From NCBI RefSeq assembly GCF_000621545.1, contig NZ_JHYA01000016.1:1-44896 (forward strand): a stretch of 44,896 nucleotides of DNA, read 5' to 3'. Within the stretch, counting starts at the first letter, position 1; every line of letters starts with the position of its first letter. Below are positions 1,350 to 40,690 of the stretch, one piece after another. This DNA is from Anaerovibrio lipolyticus LB2005 (lineage in GTDB: Bacteria; Bacillota; Negativicutes; Selenomonadales; Selenomonadaceae). The notes below the pieces were generated by a model, which did not search any database, was not told where the DNA came from, and saw only the letters and a program-made list of their open reading frames with translations. Made by a program: the position numbers and the translations under genes.

Positions 1350-4300
1350 TCAGGAAAACGAACCACTAATATAACCAAGCTGCATATTAAGCTTAGACAA
1401 GGCCACCTCCATGGCATCGTAACGCTTAAACAGCTTGTTTTCATAAGCCGACATCTGAGTCTTAAAGGTCTTCATCTTAGTCTGCATGTCGGTAATCAGC
1501 TTGCCCAAATAACTCTGATCATCCGTAGACTTAGAAGTACCAGCTATATCAGAAATCTTGGACATATGGTTGGTCATCACATTATACAACCGATTGGCCA
1601 CACCAGTATTGGCATAGTCCTGCTTTTGCTGAGCCGAAGTAATCTTATTCTTATTGGTGGACCCGGCAATGTATGTGCTGTCCTGATCAGATGCAAAGAG
1701 CTGATATATGCAATCTGGATCATCAGCCAGGGCTTTCTTCAGCTTATCCGTATCCAAAGTCAAATGGCCCTTGGTATTAGTCGAAGTAATACCAACGGAA
1801 GCCAAGGTATTGTATTGGCTATCTACCGCATCTACCTTGGTATAAATAGCCTCCCGCATAGCACTTACCAAATTTTGGATTTCACTGTTGTGATATAGAA
1901 GACCTGACTTAGCCTTTTCGTTCCATTTTTCTATCTGCTTTTCCGTCATTTCATCCTCTTGGCGTTTGCTAAGAGGTTTATAGTCAGAATATTTTTTCTC
2001 AGACAACTTTTCATTGAGAGAATCCAACAGTTTATTGTAATCATCCACGAAGCTCTTCATGTAGTCTACAATTTTATCCGTATCCTGACTAACACTGATG
2101 GTAGCCTTTTGACCAGCTTGAGTCTGATCTAAGAAGGTATAGGTTACACCTGCTACCGTCAGCTTATTGGTGGCATTGTCATAGGTCTTACCATCAATAG
2201 TTACTGAAGCATTAGTGCCAGCCCACGAATGATCCTTAGCAGCTGCTGTTTCTTCACTTTCCTTAAGTCCCATTCTGGAAACAAGCTCTTTACCCGAAGT
2301 ATCAACACCTGTTAATGTAGCATAGCCCTTGTCATTGGTTAGGGTAAGCTTACCATCTGCATCCACTGCAGCAGTCACATTTATAATTTTATTACCATTT
2401 TCATCCTTGGTAGCAGCATTGATTTTTTCAGCCAATGCACTTAAATCTGCCGCACTATTACCATCAGTATCAAAAAGATCACCGTAAGTAAAGGTAAATT
2501 CAGCTTGCCTATCGCTGTCACCAACCTGTAAGGTAAATGCCGTGTCAGAGGCATTTACCTTTGTACCATCACTCTTTTTTATGGTCAGAGTGTCACCATC
2601 TTTTACAGCACTGATACCTAAAGCATCAGCCAGACTATCCTCCGTGCTGTGCTCATTTACACGGGTAATACCCTTAGTGCTGGTGGACATATATGTCATA
2701 GAACTTGTGTCAGAAACGACCTTTACATTTAATCCACCATAAACATTCAAATTATTATCAGGATGTTCAGGATCGTCAGACACACCATTAATCACTACAT
2801 TTCCATCTGGATTAGCAATAGTAAGCTTTCCATCCACATAGTTGGCCTTGATGTTTAAGCCTTTATCTTTACACGCCTTGTTAATTTTTTCAGCTAATGC
2901 ACTTAAATCATTTGATGTTTTTTGAGTTGCTACCCAACCGGCACCGGAACTGATCTCATAGTCATTAATACGCAAATCCCAGCCATTATTTGTAAAGGCC
3001 GAATAATCTACGACATCACCATAAGATACGTCCACAGTGGCCGTTTTGTCAGTACCATCACTGATTTCAAAGCTAAAAAGCTGATTGTCTTTCCCAGTAC
3101 CTTTAGCGAAATAGTCCCTGTTTCCAGTTTGACTGCCAATATTACTTGTTCCATTTGACAAATTCATGGTGTATTTATTCGAGCTCATATACTTTATTAA
3201 ACCACTCACACCAAAAACATCAGCCAAATTATCGGTATTGGTAGTAGTACCTACAACATGGAGGCTCGTACTTGGGGTCAGATTCAGACTATCAATTAAC
3301 TGAGTAGCCACAGTCTGATTTGCACCAGTAGCAGTTAAATTTGCACTCCCATTTGGATTTGTCAGAGCGAAGCTATCCGTAACAGAGTCATAATTTGATG
3401 TAATACCAAGACCAGTCTTATTAATCTTGTCAGCAAAATCACTAAGTCCAGCAGTTGCTCCCAAATTATTCTTCTTGCCAATATCGCTGAGATTGAACAG
3501 TTCTCCCAACGTAAAGCTAATAGTAGCATTGGATGTACCATTGCTAAGATTCATGGAAAAAATTGTTGTATCTGCACTCTCTGGAACTGAATTACCGTTT
3601 CCATCAACAGTGAAATTTCCCAATTCACCAACTACTTTACCATTTTTATCATACTGTGTAACAGCAATATCGTAGTTGTCACCATTCTTAGTTGAAGTAG
3701 CCTTTAATCCCAATACATCTTTCAAACTTACAGACAAAGCACTATTGGTAATACCACTAGATTCCATTACTGTCTTCATAGTATTATCCGCGGTAAAATC
3801 AATGCGGTCACCTAATTTATTATTAGCCACATCATAGCTGCCAAGATTTAAGTTATTCAGCAAGGTAGCTGTATTGCCATTATCGGCCGTAATACCAATA
3901 ATATTTTCCTTGCCGCTTGTCTTATTATACAAGCTAAAGGAATCATTGGCTGTATCATATCCGCCTTGAATATTAGCACCTGTCTTCGCAATAGCACTGG
4001 CGAAATCATTCAGGGACTTGCCACCACTGAACAAACTGGACTGATCCCCAGTATACCCAGTATATTCACCTGATTTAAATCCAGTGAACAGCTCATCATA
4101 GGTATACGTAAGAGTATATTCCTTGTCACTGCCAGCCGTATCCTTCAGACGCAACGAAATGGCCACATCACTGCCATTAACCTCTTGGCCATTTACTTTA
4201 TAAGTAAAATTAAAATTGTTGCCATCCTGAGTATAGCTGGCCACGCTATAGTTACCGAAGATTACATCAGCTAGCTTATTACTGGACTGCGCATCCTGAT

Positions 4301-35972: not shown

Positions 35973-36000
35973 AAACAAAAGGAGCTGCCGAAGCAGCTCC
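35973..36000 (-). terminator. Leftward terminator after the 43-aa membrane peptide
   Basis: GGAGCTGC-CGAA-GCAGCTCC: perfect 8-bp stem with a tetraloop, followed on the minus strand by TTTTGTTTT. There is no T-run on the plus strand, so it ends the small-peptide operon from the right. Confidence 0.8.
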
Positions 36001-36021: not shown

Positions 36022-36153
36022 TTAATATTGATGAATTTCCTCATATAACCCTACCAAAAGGCGGAATAACATTTTTCCTGCCATAATCCCCAACGCACCA
36101 GTCAGGCCGATAAACAACAATGAGATTAAGCCGAGCTCCAAATTTGCCATCAT
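36022..36153 (-). CDS. 43-residue single-helix membrane peptide
   Basis: Starts MMANLELGLISLLFIGLTGA and ends LLVGLYEEIHQY. One hydrophobic helix (about 8-32) with short charged ends. A strong AAGGGGG site lies 7 nt before the first ATG, and a terminator follows 22 nt after the stop, so the unit is well formed. It lies 66 nt downstream of the double-glycine peptide gene on the same strand with no terminator between, and could be its immunity or partner peptide. That role is inference; no family was recognised. Confidence 0.65.
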   Translation of the reverse strand: MMANLELGLISLLFIGLTGALGIMAGKMLFRLLVGLYEEIHQY

Positions 36154-36219: not shown

Positions 36220-36417
36220 TTATGCAGCATTATGTGGTTGCTGCTGCGGTGGCTGCTGTGGGTTATCCTTCTTAGGCTGAGAGATGTCCCTAATCAAATC
36301 AATAATATCTCTGATAAACTGGAATGGCTTACGGCGTGGGCCATGAAGACGAATTCTTGGACGACCGCCTGCTACTTGCTCCAATTCCATTTCTTTAAGT
36401 TCAAGTTTCTTGCTCAT
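36220..36417 (-). CDS. Double-glycine leader peptide (bacteriocin-like precursor)
   Basis: 65 aa. Leader MSKKLELKEMELEQVAGG has the ELEQVxGG pattern cut by peptidase-containing ABC transporters. The mature part begins RPRIRLHGPRRKPFQFIRDI, is strongly basic at first, then has an amphipathic DIIDLIRDI and a proline/glutamine-rich tail. There is no cysteine. GGGAG lies 8 nt before ATG 36417; the frame is open upstream but runs through the promoter. The ECF-like promoter at 36472-36501 lies 55 bp upstream. No transporter is in the window. Confidence 0.75.
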   Translation of the reverse strand: MSKKLELKEMELEQVAGGRPRIRLHGPRRKPFQFIRDIIDLIRDISQPKKDNPQQPPQQQPHNAA

Positions 36418-36471
36418 AAGATCTACTCCCTTCCTTGTATGGGCTGTACCCATGTTTTTGTCTTCTGCCCA

Positions 36472-36501
36472 TACATACGAACCGTATAGATAAGTATTAC
36501 A
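36472..36501 (-). promoter_or_regulatory. ECF-like promoter P1 (double-glycine peptide gene)
   Basis: Minus strand TGTAAT-N16-CGTATGTA. The TGTAA / CGTA pair with 16-bp spacing resembles ECF-sigma promoters (for example SigW/SigX types). Identical boxes with identical spacing occur at P2 and P3. Confidence 0.6.
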
Positions 36502-36531
36502 AAAAAATTTTTGAAAAAAATAAAAAGTTTT

Positions 36532-36561
36532 TGTAATGGATTTGATTTTCATCCGTATGTA
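36532..36561 (+). promoter_or_regulatory. ECF-like promoter P2 (small RNA 1)
   Basis: Plus strand TGTAAT-N16-CGTATGTA, back to back with P1 across an A/T-tract, so the two -35 boxes form an inverted repeat. Confidence 0.6.
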
Positions 36562-36566
36562 TAGAT

Positions 36567-36694
36567 GTAAAACGATTCGGACTACCTTTTATCGTGGATG
36601 ATAGATTTAGTCCGTGCTTACTTTTTTCCTTTTTGACGGGTCCTCTCCAACCCGTCCCTCTCAAAGAAGCCGACTACACACGGCTTCTTTTTTT
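36567..36694 (+). ncRNA. Candidate small RNA 1
   Basis: About 128 nt from the start expected for P2 to an intrinsic terminator. Three hairpins: CGGACTA/TAGTCCG (36578-36614), GACGGGT-CCTCTCCA-ACCCGTC (36635-36656) with a C-rich loop complementary to Shine-Dalgarno sequences, and the terminator AGAAGCCG/CGGCTTCT followed by eight T. No convincing open frame on this strand. It is antisense to nothing annotated. Basis: promoter, structure and terminator only. Confidence 0.55.
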
Positions 36695-36763
36695 GCATAA
36701 AAATATGCTGTTGTATACTTTGGTTCAACAGCATTTCTAATAATAAAAAAATATTGAAAAAAA

Positions 36764-36793
36764 TGTAATACATTCTTCTGTGGGTCGTATGTA
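36764..36793 (+). promoter_or_regulatory. ECF-like promoter P3 (small RNA 2)
   Basis: Plus strand TGTAAT-N16-CGTATGTA, preceded by an A-rich tract containing TTGAAAAAAAT also present near P2. Confidence 0.6.
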
Positions 36794-36798
36794 AGGAT

Positions 36799-36876
36799 GT
36801 CATATAAAATTACACAATTCATCTCATTCTCCCCTGCTTGTTACCCTCCAAAAAACAGGCAGGGCTCTTTTTTTTT
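36799..36876 (+). ncRNA. Candidate small RNA 2
   Basis: About 78 nt between P3 and a terminator. The terminator stem CCCTGCTTG/CAGGCAGGG contains a U-G pair valid only on the plus strand and is followed by nine T. Its loop TTACCCTCCAAAAAA is complementary to GGAGGGTAA, a strong ribosome-site sequence. Upstream lies another C-rich stretch (TTCTCCCC). It converges on the stop codon of the radical SAM gene. Confidence 0.55.
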
Positions 36877-37717
36877 ACACATTTCCCAAGTAAACATAAT
36901 CCAGACATTCCTGGCTTATTTCCTGCAGCCTATATAATGTTGCCACCGGGGTGGCCTCTGTTTGTAGCTTGTAACGCGGAAAATAGCGGGACAAGTGAAG
37001 TGGTATATCCTTCCGCAACTTGGAAATCCACGTAGCCTCTGAACGCATCATATCAGAATCATCATTGATGCCAGGAATAACAAGGGTTGTCACTTCCACA
37101 TGAACACCGGCCTCCAACGACAGCCGTATGGTATCCTTGGTCGTTTTAAAATCTCCCCCCATCCATTTGTATCCATCTTCAGAGAACGCCTTTAAATCAA
37201 TATTCATAGCATCTATATAAGGAAGAATTGCCTTCAATGGCTCCTGACATACTTGCCCATTGGTCACCAGCACCACCTTCTGCCCCTCCGCTTTCAACAA
37301 TGGTGCCACATCCAATAAATACTCATAGCTGAGGAATGGCTCGTTATAGGTAAAGGCCACCCCTATGCTTCCAGCTTTCAAAGTGGCTTTACGGGCAAAT
37401 TCCACCATTTCTTCCGGGGAAACATAGCCCTGAGATACCTCTATTCCCTGCTGTGATATGGAATAATTTTGACAGAAGGGACATTTCATATTGCATCCAA
37501 AGCCCCCCACAGATAATATTGCCGTTCCGGGATAGAAATGATACAAAGGCTTCTTTTCGATGGGATCAACGGCCAAAGATGTGACCTGCCCATAGGAAAT
37601 CGATTTTATGTTACCATCAATATTTTTTCTGGTACCACAAAGCCCTGTCTTATTTTGATTTAAATTGCATTTATGCGGGCAAAGCCCACATTGCACCATA
37701 CTGTTTTCCTTATCCAT
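36875..37717 (-). CDS. AmrS-like (AmmeMemoRadiSam) radical SAM protein, short C-terminus
   Basis: 280 aa. N-terminal cysteine cluster CGLCPHKCNLNQNKTGLCGT (10-29), then the radical SAM motif GGFGCNMKCPFCQNYSIS (CxxxCxxC near 75) and GVAFTYNEPFLSYEYLLDV. The sequence ends YVYLGNV; family members I know run about 40-50 residues further with a C-terminal CxxC, which is missing here. It starts 27 nt after a Nif11-type RiPP precursor, so a role in modifying that peptide is possible, but its family is known for another, unsettled function. No AMMECR1 or Memo gene is present. Confidence 0.8.
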   Translation of the reverse strand: MDKENSMVQCGLCPHKCNLNQNKTGLCGTRKNIDGNIKSISYGQVTSLAVDPIEKKPLYHFYPGTAILSVGGFGCNMKCPFCQNYSISQQGIEVSQGYVSPEEMVEFARKATLKAGSIGVAFTYNEPFLSYEYLLDVAPLLKAEGQKVVLVTNGQVCQEPLKAILPYIDAMNIDLKAFSEDGYKWMGGDFKTTKDTIRLSLEAGVHVEVTTLVIPGINDDSDMMRSEATWISKLRKDIPLHLSRYFPRYKLQTEATPVATLYRLQEISQECLDYVYLGNV

Positions 37718-37744: not shown

Positions 37745-38191
37745 CTATTTAGCTATGCCCCTTATCTGGCCACCCATTATCGCACAAAAAACAGTTTGTT
37801 TATTGGCATTTAAATTATTAATGCTTACACCAATAACGCTACAACCCGAGTTGTTATTGGTGATATTATTATGACGCGTTCCCCAACGCTGTACTGCCGT
37901 TCCGCCACAAACCTGGTCCAATTCATCTTCAGAAATAGTCATATCCGTCAGCTGGTCGATTTCAAAGGCCTTTAATTCTTCAATAGTGAATGGGAGCCCC
38001 ACTTCACTAGCTATAGGCAGAACAATACTTGCTGCCGCTTTTTCCAAAAATGCACAAATAATCTTTTCATCATCATCTGCTGGTAATTCATTATCTTCAG
38101 CGAAAGTTTTATCAAGTGCATTGAGTTTTTCTGCTATAGATATATCCATGGTTAGTTTTTCATAAAACTTTCCTACGTTATCCTTTGCCAT
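37745..38191 (-). CDS. Nif11-type RiPP precursor peptide
   Basis: 148 aa. The leader resembles Nif11 domains (FYEKLTMDISIAEKLNAL ... GLPFTIEELKAFEI) and ends MTISEDELDQVCGG, a double-glycine cleavage site near residue 97. The predicted core is about 51 residues: it starts TAVQRWGTRHNNITNNNSGC, is rich in asparagine, has two cysteines, and ends IMGGQIRGIAK. GAGGAGG lies 8 nt before the ATG, and the 31-bp shared promoter motif is at 38236. A radical SAM gene follows; no lanthionine synthetase or transporter is in the window. Confidence 0.8.
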   Translation of the reverse strand: MAKDNVGKFYEKLTMDISIAEKLNALDKTFAEDNELPADDDEKIICAFLEKAAASIVLPIASEVGLPFTIEELKAFEIDQLTDMTISEDELDQVCGGTAVQRWGTRHNNITNNNSGCSVIGVSINNLNANKQTVFCAIMGGQIRGIAK

Positions 38192-38341: not shown

Positions 38342-38566
38342 TTATTTGTTCTTGTTTTCTATATTTTTATTTTTTTCCAGTGCAGGATTACCAGCTGCAA
38401 CCACCATATCCAGCTCATCATCTGTCATCCTCCCCGTCATAATACCTCGCATGGCATTATCCCGACGGTGCATGAACAATAACTGATTCCTTAAAGTCTC
38501 CCTCACTGGATGCAGGAGAGAAAAATCAAAATCTTCCAGCCTTTTTGTCAACTTCTCATCATCCAT
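38342..38566 (-). CDS. Small RiPP-precursor-like peptide
   Basis: 74 aa. The leader-like part contains LEDFDFSLLHPVRETLRNQL, then MTDDELDMVVAAGNP, whose DELDxVxAAG pattern resembles leader ends of RiPP precursors. Only about 15 residues follow (ALEKNKNIENKNK), charged and asparagine-rich, with no Cys, Ser or Thr. It could be a precursor with an eroded core or a leader-only regulator. AGGGGGG lies 6 nt before the ATG. Promoter shared with the Nif11-type gene. A weak hairpin (GCCCT/AGGGC at 38300-38323) lies downstream. Confidence 0.6.
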   Translation of the reverse strand: MDDEKLTKRLEDFDFSLLHPVRETLRNQLLFMHRRDNAMRGIMTGRMTDDELDMVVAAGNPALEKNKNIENKNK

Positions 38567-38798: not shown

Positions 38799-40568
38799 TT
38801 ATTTATTGGACCTGGACTTACTTTTCTTATGTTTCTTGGCTTCATACAAGGCACTGTCCACCCGCTGAAATATTGTAAGGGCATTATCCACATGTTGGGC
38901 TATAGCTATACCTATGCTGGTGGTAAAATGCTCGCCCCGCGGCAAAACATTGGAGGTTTTTACACTATGCTTTATAGCCTCGGCTATTTTCTGGGCACCC
39001 TCTAGGGCAGTGTTTGGCAGAATAACCATAAATTCGTCACCGCCCCACCGGCCAGCCGAATCGTTGCTGCTGATGTTTTTACTTATACTCCCTGCAACAG
39101 CCTTTAGTGCTTCATCGCCCACATCATGTCCAAAGGAGTCATTTACCAGCTTAAAGTCATCTACGTCAAGCATAAGAATTGCCAAATTGGTAAGTTGGTT
39201 TGTGTGGTACATCCACATAGCCTGCTCTAGTGCAGATTCCAGGCCTGCATGGTTAAGAAGTGGGGTAAGGGTGTCATGTAAAAGGCCACTTCGTTCATAT
39301 TCTATACAGCTCTCCGCCATATTAATCCCCAGCTTGACCGCTTGGGCTAAGCGTTTACAGCTTCCATAGCCACAGGCGTGACAATTGCGGTTCCGGGATT
39401 CAACAGTATTCTTTCGAAGTTGGTAGAACACATCATCCAAATCCTCATCGGTAAATCGGCCATTTTCTATTTTTTTGCTTGAGTATTCCCTGATATAGTC
39501 ATGCCAATCCAGGCAGCTGTCAAAATATTGCTCTATTTTGTAAATAGTACCATGGTCCTTTTCTGTAACCTGATTGGCGAGCTGTTCCTTTTTATAAATA
39601 TTGGTCTTATAATCAATATCGTCCATGGAAATTTTTTGCTCAGTTCCTGTACCGCAATTACAGCCACCTGTGCAATTCAGGATATCTACTATATCGGGAA
39701 CCGGAAGCTGTTTAGTTTGCCGTTGGTAATATTCCTTAAGGTATGGGTATACGCGTCGGACTGAATCTATCTGACGTATCCAAAGGTCTTTATTTGTAAC
39801 ACGGATAGTTTCACCCAATCCCCCTGGACGACTGTATACATGACCTATTCCAGGCTGCATTCCATCGAAGCCAGTCTCCGGATATTGGTCAAGCTGGACG
39901 TGCATTTCAGCTAATTTACGCTTCAGCTTGTCAAAGGTTATGTTGTATGATACCAATTTCCCTGTATTTTGATCGCCTATTTCATCTGTTTTAGCGATGC
40001 AAGGTGATAAAAAGGCAATTTTTCCCTCCAGCTGCTTTTCCAGACGTAAATAAATAGCCATACAGATAAGAGGGCTTTGAATAGGTGCCAATGAAGGTAA
40101 CAACTCTGGCATATAACGTTCACAGAAATTTACCACAGACGAACATGGCTGAGCAATAACGGAAGAAAGGGATAGCTCCTGTCTCGCCTTTAAATATGCC
40201 CAGGTAGAGATATCAGCACCAAAGGAGACATCATATATATTAGCGACTCCCATGGATTTCAGCCACCCCAGCAGGCGGGGCAAATCTGAAAAATTAACCT
40301 TAGCCGCCGGAGCTACAAGGAGATGAATGGGATCACCCATTGCCAAATCCATAAAAAAGCGCTCTGTGTCATCGGTATAATCACGGGCTCCATGATCACA
40401 AACCTTAATACATGCACCACAGGAAATGCAATATTTACTGTTGACAGCAATACGCCGTTTTCTGTCCAGGGATCTGTACACCCGATTGGCCATATCTACA
40501 GGGCAGACTTCAATACACTTGTTACAGGCTGTACATTTCTTTTCTATTGTAAAAACCCTACCATGCAT
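38799..40568 (-). CDS. [FeFe]-hydrogenase-like iron-sulfur sensor fused to a diguanylate cyclase
   Basis: 589 aa from ATG 40568 (GGAGG 7 nt upstream). Two [4Fe-4S] motifs, CTACNKCIEVCP (12-23) and CISCGACIKVCDHG (48-61), precede an iron-hydrogenase large-subunit-like region (85-345) with AQPCSSVVNFCERYMPELLP, LSPCIAKTDEIG and LNCTGGCNCGTG. Then comes a four-cysteine motif CHACGYGSCKRLAQAVK with a later Cys (about 393-420) and a GGDEF domain with GRWGGDEFMVILP (about 430-585). The first H-cluster motif has one Cys where catalytic enzymes have TSCCP, so it is probably a redox or H2 sensor. No RxxD inhibitory site. Confidence 0.85.
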   Translation of the reverse strand: MHGRVFTIEKKCTACNKCIEVCPVDMANRVYRSLDRKRRIAVNSKYCISCGACIKVCDHGARDYTDDTERFFMDLAMGDPIHLLVAPAAKVNFSDLPRLLGWLKSMGVANIYDVSFGADISTWAYLKARQELSLSSVIAQPCSSVVNFCERYMPELLPSLAPIQSPLICMAIYLRLEKQLEGKIAFLSPCIAKTDEIGDQNTGKLVSYNITFDKLKRKLAEMHVQLDQYPETGFDGMQPGIGHVYSRPGGLGETIRVTNKDLWIRQIDSVRRVYPYLKEYYQRQTKQLPVPDIVDILNCTGGCNCGTGTEQKISMDDIDYKTNIYKKEQLANQVTEKDHGTIYKIEQYFDSCLDWHDYIREYSSKKIENGRFTDEDLDDVFYQLRKNTVESRNRNCHACGYGSCKRLAQAVKLGINMAESCIEYERSGLLHDTLTPLLNHAGLESALEQAMWMYHTNQLTNLAILMLDVDDFKLVNDSFGHDVGDEALKAVAGSISKNISSNDSAGRWGGDEFMVILPNTALEGAQKIAEAIKHSVKTSNVLPRGEHFTTSIGIAIAQHVDNALTIFQRVDSALYEAKKHKKSKSRSNK

Positions 40569-40690
40569 AACTGCTCCTCCAGTTACGAATATATTCACTA
40601 CTACATCACATTTTATACCCTCAATTTAATTATAACAATATGAATAAAAGGCATATCAATAAAAATGTTTCTCTTTTTTTATTTTTCTGC

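Follow-up and report, generated by a model that had tools for sequence, protein, structure and literature searches.

Alternative sigma factors can drive proteins together with repressor small RNAs, as sigma-E of E. coli does with MicA and RybB. Extracytoplasmic function (ECF) sigma factors recognise consensus boxes resembling TGTAAC and CGTA. In Listeria monocytogenes, the LhrC RNAs are several related small RNAs under one stress regulator that pair with ribosome-binding sites, according to the available part of the report (PMC4132741). In Streptococcus pneumoniae, the csRNAs are similar small RNAs controlled by CiaRH that repress comC, in a system of the exported, ABC-transporter-processed peptide CSP (available part of PMC4507080). 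Precursor and export systems of the NHLP/Nif11 type have been described as well (Haft 2010, PMC2887384, available part). Here we analyse a locus of the rumen bacterium Anaerovibrio lipolyticus LB2005. The window, that is, the whole stretch of DNA analysed, comprises 44,896 nt and represents contig C15 of a 2.68 Mb genome (G000). Within it, a putative ECF-type promoter occurs three times, once in front of a double-glycine peptide gene and twice in front of small RNA units, designated RNA1 and RNA2. We consider it probable that one sigma factor, designated ECF1, co-induces exported double-glycine peptides and CU-rich antisense RNAs that act like LhrC and the csRNAs.

A shared two-box promoter

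A previous sequence-only reading of the locus had noted three copies of TGTAAT-N16-CGTATGTA with identical boxes and spacing. All three are exact at the positions and on the strands where it had placed them, and they are the only exact matches in the window (n = 3; Table 1). With up to two mismatches the window contains four matches, compared with a mean of 0.25 in 100 shuffles, none of which reached four. A genome-wide search, proposed by the same reading as a check, returned six exact matches against none for a reversed-pattern control. At up to two mismatches the whole-genome signal equals the control (29 versus 31 matches), so weight is placed only on exact or nearly exact sites. For the genus and family counts the second box was widened to CGTATRTA. 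The 16 genus genomes contain 64 TGTAAT-N16-CGTATRTA sites (2 control matches), distributed over 9 of the genomes, while the 189 family genomes contain 131 (5 control matches), distributed over 26 (row sums).

Table 1. Features of the locus and its surroundings, with the ECF1 gene on contig C1
Feature	Position	Strand	Basis
ECF-type promoter, peptide unit	36472..36501	-	exact motif; identical in DSM 3074 (G008)
ECF-type promoter, RNA1	36532..36561	+	exact motif
ECF-type promoter, RNA2	36764..36793	+	exact motif
RNA1, three-hairpin small RNA	36562..36694	+	fold; seven-copy alignment and model; predicted start ~36567
RNA1 middle hairpin, CCTCTCC loop	36635..36656	+	fold; in 7/7 copies
RNA1 terminator hairpin	36663..36690	+	terminator scan, fold, alignment
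RNA2, small RNA with CU-rich leader	36794..36876	+	fold; 12-copy alignment; model matches; predicted start ~36799
RNA2 terminator hairpin with C-rich loop	36832..36864	+	fold
Double-glycine peptide gene, 65 aa	36220..36417, stop included (36223-36417 coding)	-	translation
43-aa hydrophobic peptide gene	36022..36153	-	ORF with AAAGGGGG site; kept in G008, G002, G004
Terminator, leftward unit	35981..36000	-	terminator scan
ECF1 gene, 181 aa	C1:178104-178646		PF04542, PF08281, TIGR02937 above cut-offs
Radical SAM protein gene, convergent with RNA2	36875..37717	-	Pfam Radical_SAM
Nif11-type precursor gene	37745..38191	-	TIGR03798, PF07862, both below cut-off
74-aa Nif11-like peptide gene	38342..38566	-	ORF; likeness by eye

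ECF1 and the NHLP exporter

Sigma region 2 has six matches in the genome, one of which is ECF1. This short protein contains both sigma region 2 and sigma region 4, the arrangement of an ECF sigma factor, and its match to the BldN equivalog TIGR02952 is below cut-off. The genes before ECF1 encode an NHLP exporter. Specifically, they are ABC1 with a C39 peptidase (PF03412), ABC2 and HlyD, for which TIGR03796, TIGR03797 and TIGR03794 all score above the NCBIfam cut-off, together with an efflux-type adaptor. ECF1 lies directly behind ABC2 in seven of the eight genus genomes that have it; in the eighth (G011), only part of ECF1 is matched and the stretch examined showed no exporter gene. Two one-mismatch motif sites lie nearby. 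One is about 30 bases behind ECF1, upstream of a gene for a 123-aa protein, and the other diverges from the start of the exporter operon, with the gene for a 62-aa Nif11-like peptide behind it. The 123-aa protein (L036 5588-5956 (-), C1) has a signal-peptide-like start and matches no Pfam or NCBIfam family.

The motif tracks ECF1. At 80% identity or more, ECF1 is present in 8 of the 16 genus genomes, all of which have motif sites; among the other eight, sites occur only in UBA3726 (G002), a metagenome-assembled genome (MAG) that is 87% complete. At 67% identity or more, a threshold drawn after the list had been viewed (next best 57%), ECF1 is present in 20 of the 189 family genomes, and the motif is found in 20/20 of these versus 6/169 of the others, with a Fisher p of 5e-22 that overstates the association because the genomes are related. 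Such a common two-box promoter tracking a sigma factor gene characterises an ECF regulon, consistent with the ECF-type promoter proposed earlier. The accompanying proposal of an envelope-stress or competition regulon holds in its second half: ECF1 belongs to an NHLP bacteriocin-export operon, whereas nothing was found in favour of envelope stress.

The genome has a second ECF gene, ECF2 (C6), followed by an autotransporter gene with TGTAAG-N16-CGTATATA in front of it. On C5, this variant promoter lies upstream of another large surface-type gene. ECF2 and the variant promoter (L037 4185-4870 and L041 4874) are possibly a sister regulon.

The leftward peptide unit and other genes behind the motif

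The leftward box ends 54 bases upstream of the ATG of the peptide gene. The peptide has a MSKKLELKEMELEQVAGG leader ending in GG, and with a C39 exporter in the genome it qualifies as a double-glycine precursor, the kind of gene that the leftward promoter had been suggested to serve. The peptide has no match in Pfam or NCBIfam and so falls in no bacteriocin family catalogued there, and its family also occurs behind the motif in other genus genomes. The leftward unit probably continues with the 43-aa hydrophobic peptide gene as its second gene; in UBA3726 and in the MAG RGIG5102 (G004), the motif stands immediately before this 43-aa gene.

All 64 genus sites were classified by a crude rule and then read. 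By the rule, the largest class (26 sites) lies upstream of double-glycine-type peptide genes, 25 sites precede other open reading frames (ORFs) and 13 precede none. On reading, 14 sites precede non-coding units, namely seven RNA1, five RNA2 and two copies of a third CU-rich RNA. The rule miscalled the RNA2 site on C27 of G014 because a peptide gene comes after RNA2, it miscalled the C17 copy of the third RNA as a 48-aa ORF, and one of the 13 ORF-less sites is the broken peptide gene of A. lipolyticus DSM 3074 (G008). Other genes behind the motif encode a 238-aa family, the 123-aa protein, 43-55-aa membrane peptides and autotransporter-type proteins. The 238-aa family (L044 6363-7079 (+), C13 of G000) is found there in G000, DSM 3074, UBA3726, G014 and strain JC8 (G013), and as a 235-aa form in G009 and G011; it shows a likeness to XopAD-type models in their C-terminal part, at scores far under the cut-off, and a weak one to RelA_SpoT.

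Outside the genus, 43 of the 67 sites were read (40 stretches, 9 of the 17 other motif genomes). Double-glycine-type peptide genes follow 24 of them, other ORFs follow 17, and the two ORF-less sites correspond to a peptide gene with a stop and to a position close to a contig end. Neither RNA1 nor RNA2 was recognisable by eye after any of these 43 sites. The pattern suggests that the peptide regulon is the older core, with the small RNAs added in Anaerovibrio.

Structured non-coding units behind the rightward boxes

Each rightward box is followed by a short non-coding unit with a terminator hairpin, in agreement with the sequence-only reading. In neither case did scripts detect an ORF that has a ribosome-binding-like sequence; the longest frames are 33 codons with a GTG start in RNA1 and 26 codons in RNA2. 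The ORF at the top of one list (36618-36803 (-)) is merely antisense to RNA2 and was set aside. The fold of RNA1 has three hairpins (z -4.4), the middle one carrying CCTCTCC in its loop, and the RNA1 terminator is detected on the + strand only. RNA2 has one main hairpin (z -3.5), its loop containing ACCCTCC and a T run coming after it; the simple scan did not list this terminator because its 11-nt loop exceeds the scan maximum of 8.

Both units are conserved within the genus. Seven RNA1 copies occur in 5 of the 16 genomes (G000, DSM 3074, UBA3726, RGIG5102 and three in JC8), and all seven align from the first base past the motif, although the copies were first found via motif-centred stretches and the promoter is thus partly a condition of their discovery. 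A model search of the 189 whole genomes returned the same seven as its sole strong matches (E <1e-17) and nothing convincing beyond the genus. In a named genome collection, an RNA1-core pattern matches six contigs, four of them Anaerovibrio (DSM 3074, UBA3726, RGIG5102 and JC8); the other two are actinobacterial and are taken as chance. The middle loop reads CCTCTCC, CCTCC or TTCCCC across the seven copies. Six were folded, leaving out the DSM 3074 copy, which differs from the window by one base. In these folds the middle hairpin with its C-rich loop and a GAAGCCG/CGGCTTC-type terminator are present, while the first hairpin varies in sequence. RNA1 also has a U-rich stretch, which is not kept in all JC8 copies. 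Around the three JC8 copies, no peptide gene was recognised within 2.6 kb, to the extent that the stretches reach. On L142 of JC8 (1756-3457), two same-direction RNA1 copies flank a gene of 416 aa on the opposite strand.

RNA2 has ten strong copies (E <1e-9) in 6 of the 16 genus genomes and weaker ones in G014 and UBA3726. All ten contain CATTCTC and a pyrimidine-rich loop, together with a CCCTGCYTG or CCCTGTCTG hairpin that hardly varies. In six, 13 or 14 of the 14 motif bases are present 29-30 nt upstream of the modelled part; the chance baseline of this scoring came from motif-centred stretches and is therefore too high. Weak matches of the RNA models outside Anaerovibrio (G026, G182, G130, G208) have at most 10 of the 14 promoter bases and are attributed to chance.

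The third CU-rich RNA has CCCATCTCCTTCCCC, a CCTCTCTCC loop and its own terminator, and stands in tandem after RNA2 on C26 and C17 (sites L043 2701-2730 and L042 872-901 (-)). There the T run of the RNA2 terminator abuts the next TGTAAT box.

At Rfam gathering thresholds only a tRNA is found in the window, and RNA1 and RNA2 reach no cut-off. At E up to 5 the locus has four sub-threshold matches, the best being ncr1015 (wrong strand, 29.7 of 60 bits), which we take as chance. Positions 36220-36880 are unmatched in the plasmid and phage collections.

Neighbourhood and comparison with DSM 3074

In DSM 3074, the double-glycine peptide has lost its leader and ribosome-binding site to one deletion, and the Nif11 gene has lost much of its length to a second. 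All three promoters are unchanged, and RNA1 and RNA2 are about 99% identical to those of the window, with one substitution each and two gap columns in RNA2. The boxes are thus conserved in relatives, even where the adjacent peptide gene is broken, and the divergence that the sequence-only reading had named as counter-evidence is not seen.

The RNAs of the window and of contigs C17, C23 and C26 are directed towards a Nif11-type precursor gene on the opposite strand; in the window the radical SAM gene lies between. On C10 of JC8 and C27 of G014, a double-glycine peptide gene is located downstream of RNA2. On the 6.4-kb contig C23 of G000 (L129 1-6400), a promoterless RNA2 copy shares the contig with several genes for Nif11-type precursors. 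Elsewhere in the window, a gene at 38802-40598 (-) joins an iron-only hydrogenase large-subunit C-terminal domain, ferredoxin domains and GGDEF in one protein.

Discussion

At the sequence level, the locus has a shared promoter linked to ECF1 and its exporter, and conserved structured units that end in terminators and contain no recognisable gene. It would be one part of a genome-wide regulon whose sigma factor is encoded at the end of the NHLP bacteriocin-export operon. When ECF1 is active, RNA polymerase would start at the TGTAAT-N16-CGTATRTA sites, and the transcripts would yield precursors of exported double-glycine peptides. ECF1 would also direct synthesis of RNA1 and RNA2 where an Anaerovibrio genome carries them, as some do. 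Both RNAs have the CU-rich motifs, in loops or unpaired stretches, that characterise CU-rich antisense RNAs. They most likely act in trans, with CU-rich unpaired segments and loops pairing with G-rich ribosome-binding sites and blocking translation, and the peptide programme would thereby also repress a second gene set. Antisense action in trans is favoured, by analogy, because there is no frame with a ribosome-binding-like site, the CU-rich motifs are as in LhrC, and all 16 of the 16 genus genomes encode Hfq. From this arrangement we infer that ECF1 transcribes the units and that the RNAs act in trans and repress, as well as any targets.

Several observations weigh against this reading, in addition to the late threshold and the relatedness of the genomes given above. 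Six motif genomes are without ECF1 at 67% identity or more (UBA3726, G085, G105, G118, G130 and G184). Four of the ten strong RNA2 copies have no promoter (G000 C17 and C23, UBA3726 C3, RGIG5102 C145), the RNA2 stem is almost invariant in the 12-copy alignment, and both RNAs turned up in a single genus. RNA1 covariation is not significant in two tests, in one of which two of nine rows were partial repeats, and covariation was rejected as proof of structure. The remaining points come from target tests against 135 gene starts of this genome or up to 302 background starts. Tested on the 135 starts, the RNA1 loop is no better than shuffles (27/100 reach it), and with any segment 31 double-glycine candidate starts, not all of them behind the motif and about four retained despite being spurious by eye, pair no better than the 302 background starts. 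The target prediction with the C-rich loops, suggested by the sequence-only reading, singled out no specific mRNA among 135 to 302 starts.

Other results of the same tests are mixed. None of 100 shuffled RNA2 loops pairs as well as the RNA2 loop, while the RNA1 U-rich stretch is reached by 93/100 shuffles (135 starts each). The C-rich loops proposed earlier are present, with complementarity to ribosome-binding sites that is only generic. Against the 302 background starts, thirteen Nif11-type starts pair slightly better with the linker of RNA1 (p 0.04) and with the loop of RNA2 (p 0.07), and also with the 16S tail (p 0.03; all uncorrected), and pair worse with the RNA2 leader. A 14-nt pairing (with G-U) of the RNA1 U-rich stretch to an autotransporter start was dropped, because the stretch is no better than shuffles and is not kept in all JC8 copies.

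The double-glycine candidate starts pair more weakly than background with the RNA1 and RNA2 loops. This would fit a broader, speculative and rather unlikely reading, in which RNA1 and RNA2 are regulon-wide anti-Shine-Dalgarno RNAs. Strong-GGAGG mRNAs, including Nif11 precursors and autotransporters, would be damped, co-induced peptide mRNAs with weaker GGGAG or AGGAG would escape, and the exported-peptide and surface repertoire would be swapped. The weaker pairing may only reflect weaker sites, since the same starts also pair less with the 16S tail.

The lack of a specific mRNA in the target tests, together with the RNA1 U-rich stretch and the ubiquity of Hfq in the genus, would also suit real promoters and RNAs that act on no particular mRNA and instead sequester ribosomes or a protein that binds RNA, such as Hfq. 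We consider this improbable: the CU-rich loops are kept while flanking letters change, which is the LhrC-type arrangement, and the target test spanned only 135 to 302 starts. Somewhat less probable still is that the units are functionless by-products, transcribed from promoters left over from lost or moved peptide genes and running into terminators. A peptide gene beside such a promoter is decaying in DSM 3074, RNA2 copies mostly adjoin peptide genes and some have no promoter, and RNA1 is limited to 5 of the 16 genus genomes; against this, the C-rich loop and terminator of RNA1 are kept in seven copies, including the three diverged JC8 copies away from recognised peptide genes, and the folds are far more stable than shuffles. 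That the boxes are read by a factor other than ECF1, for example ECF2, is suggested by the TGTAAG variant just downstream of ECF2, before autotransporter-type genes, and by the six genomes without a close ECF1, but is quite unlikely, since ECF relatives at 41-44% identity occur in four motif-free genus genomes (G001, G007, G010, G015) and the exception G130 has a 51% relative with the motif about 40 bases behind its gene.

Co-induction of peptides and antisense RNAs by ECF1 remains our preferred reading. It would define an ECF regulon for NHLP/Nif11-type peptide export in Selenomonadaceae, with one sigma factor, one motif, one exporter and many peptides. Two small RNA families would have been added beneath the same promoter in a genus of the Firmicutes lineage that encodes autotransporters, which are outer-membrane proteins. 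The motif by itself can flag unannotated peptide genes in rumen genomes.

The exporter, precursor and ECF families are of known kinds, whereas RNA1 and RNA2 match no catalogued RNA family. As in the NHLP/Nif11 systems (available part of PMC2887384), the exporter families TIGR03794, TIGR03796 and TIGR03797 are above cut-off, and Nif11-type precursors (TIGR03798) are present, one above and one below cut-off. Unlike in that description, an ECF factor, a promoter motif and small RNAs are added here; the words "sigma" and "promoter" are absent from the available part of its text, and none of the literature matches listed joins ECF factors with NHLP export or concerns Anaerovibrio small RNAs. RNA1 and RNA2 resemble LhrC (available part of PMC4132741) in being related small RNAs, putatively under one regulator, with CU-rich motifs in loops or unpaired stretches, and the csRNAs (available part of PMC4507080) in being similar small RNAs of one regulon tied to an exported peptide. 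No Rfam match joins them to the LhrC or csRNA family, and whereas the csRNAs repress comC itself, the double-glycine starts are not preferred partners here.

A further parallel is E. coli sigma-E, where one alternative sigma factor drives both proteins and repressor small RNAs. The regulon described here differs in being one of peptide export, and nothing points to envelope stress as its signal. If the proposed mechanism is true, ECF1 with RNA1 and RNA2 would be a further, independent sigma-plus-small-RNA circuit beside sigma-E with MicA and RybB.
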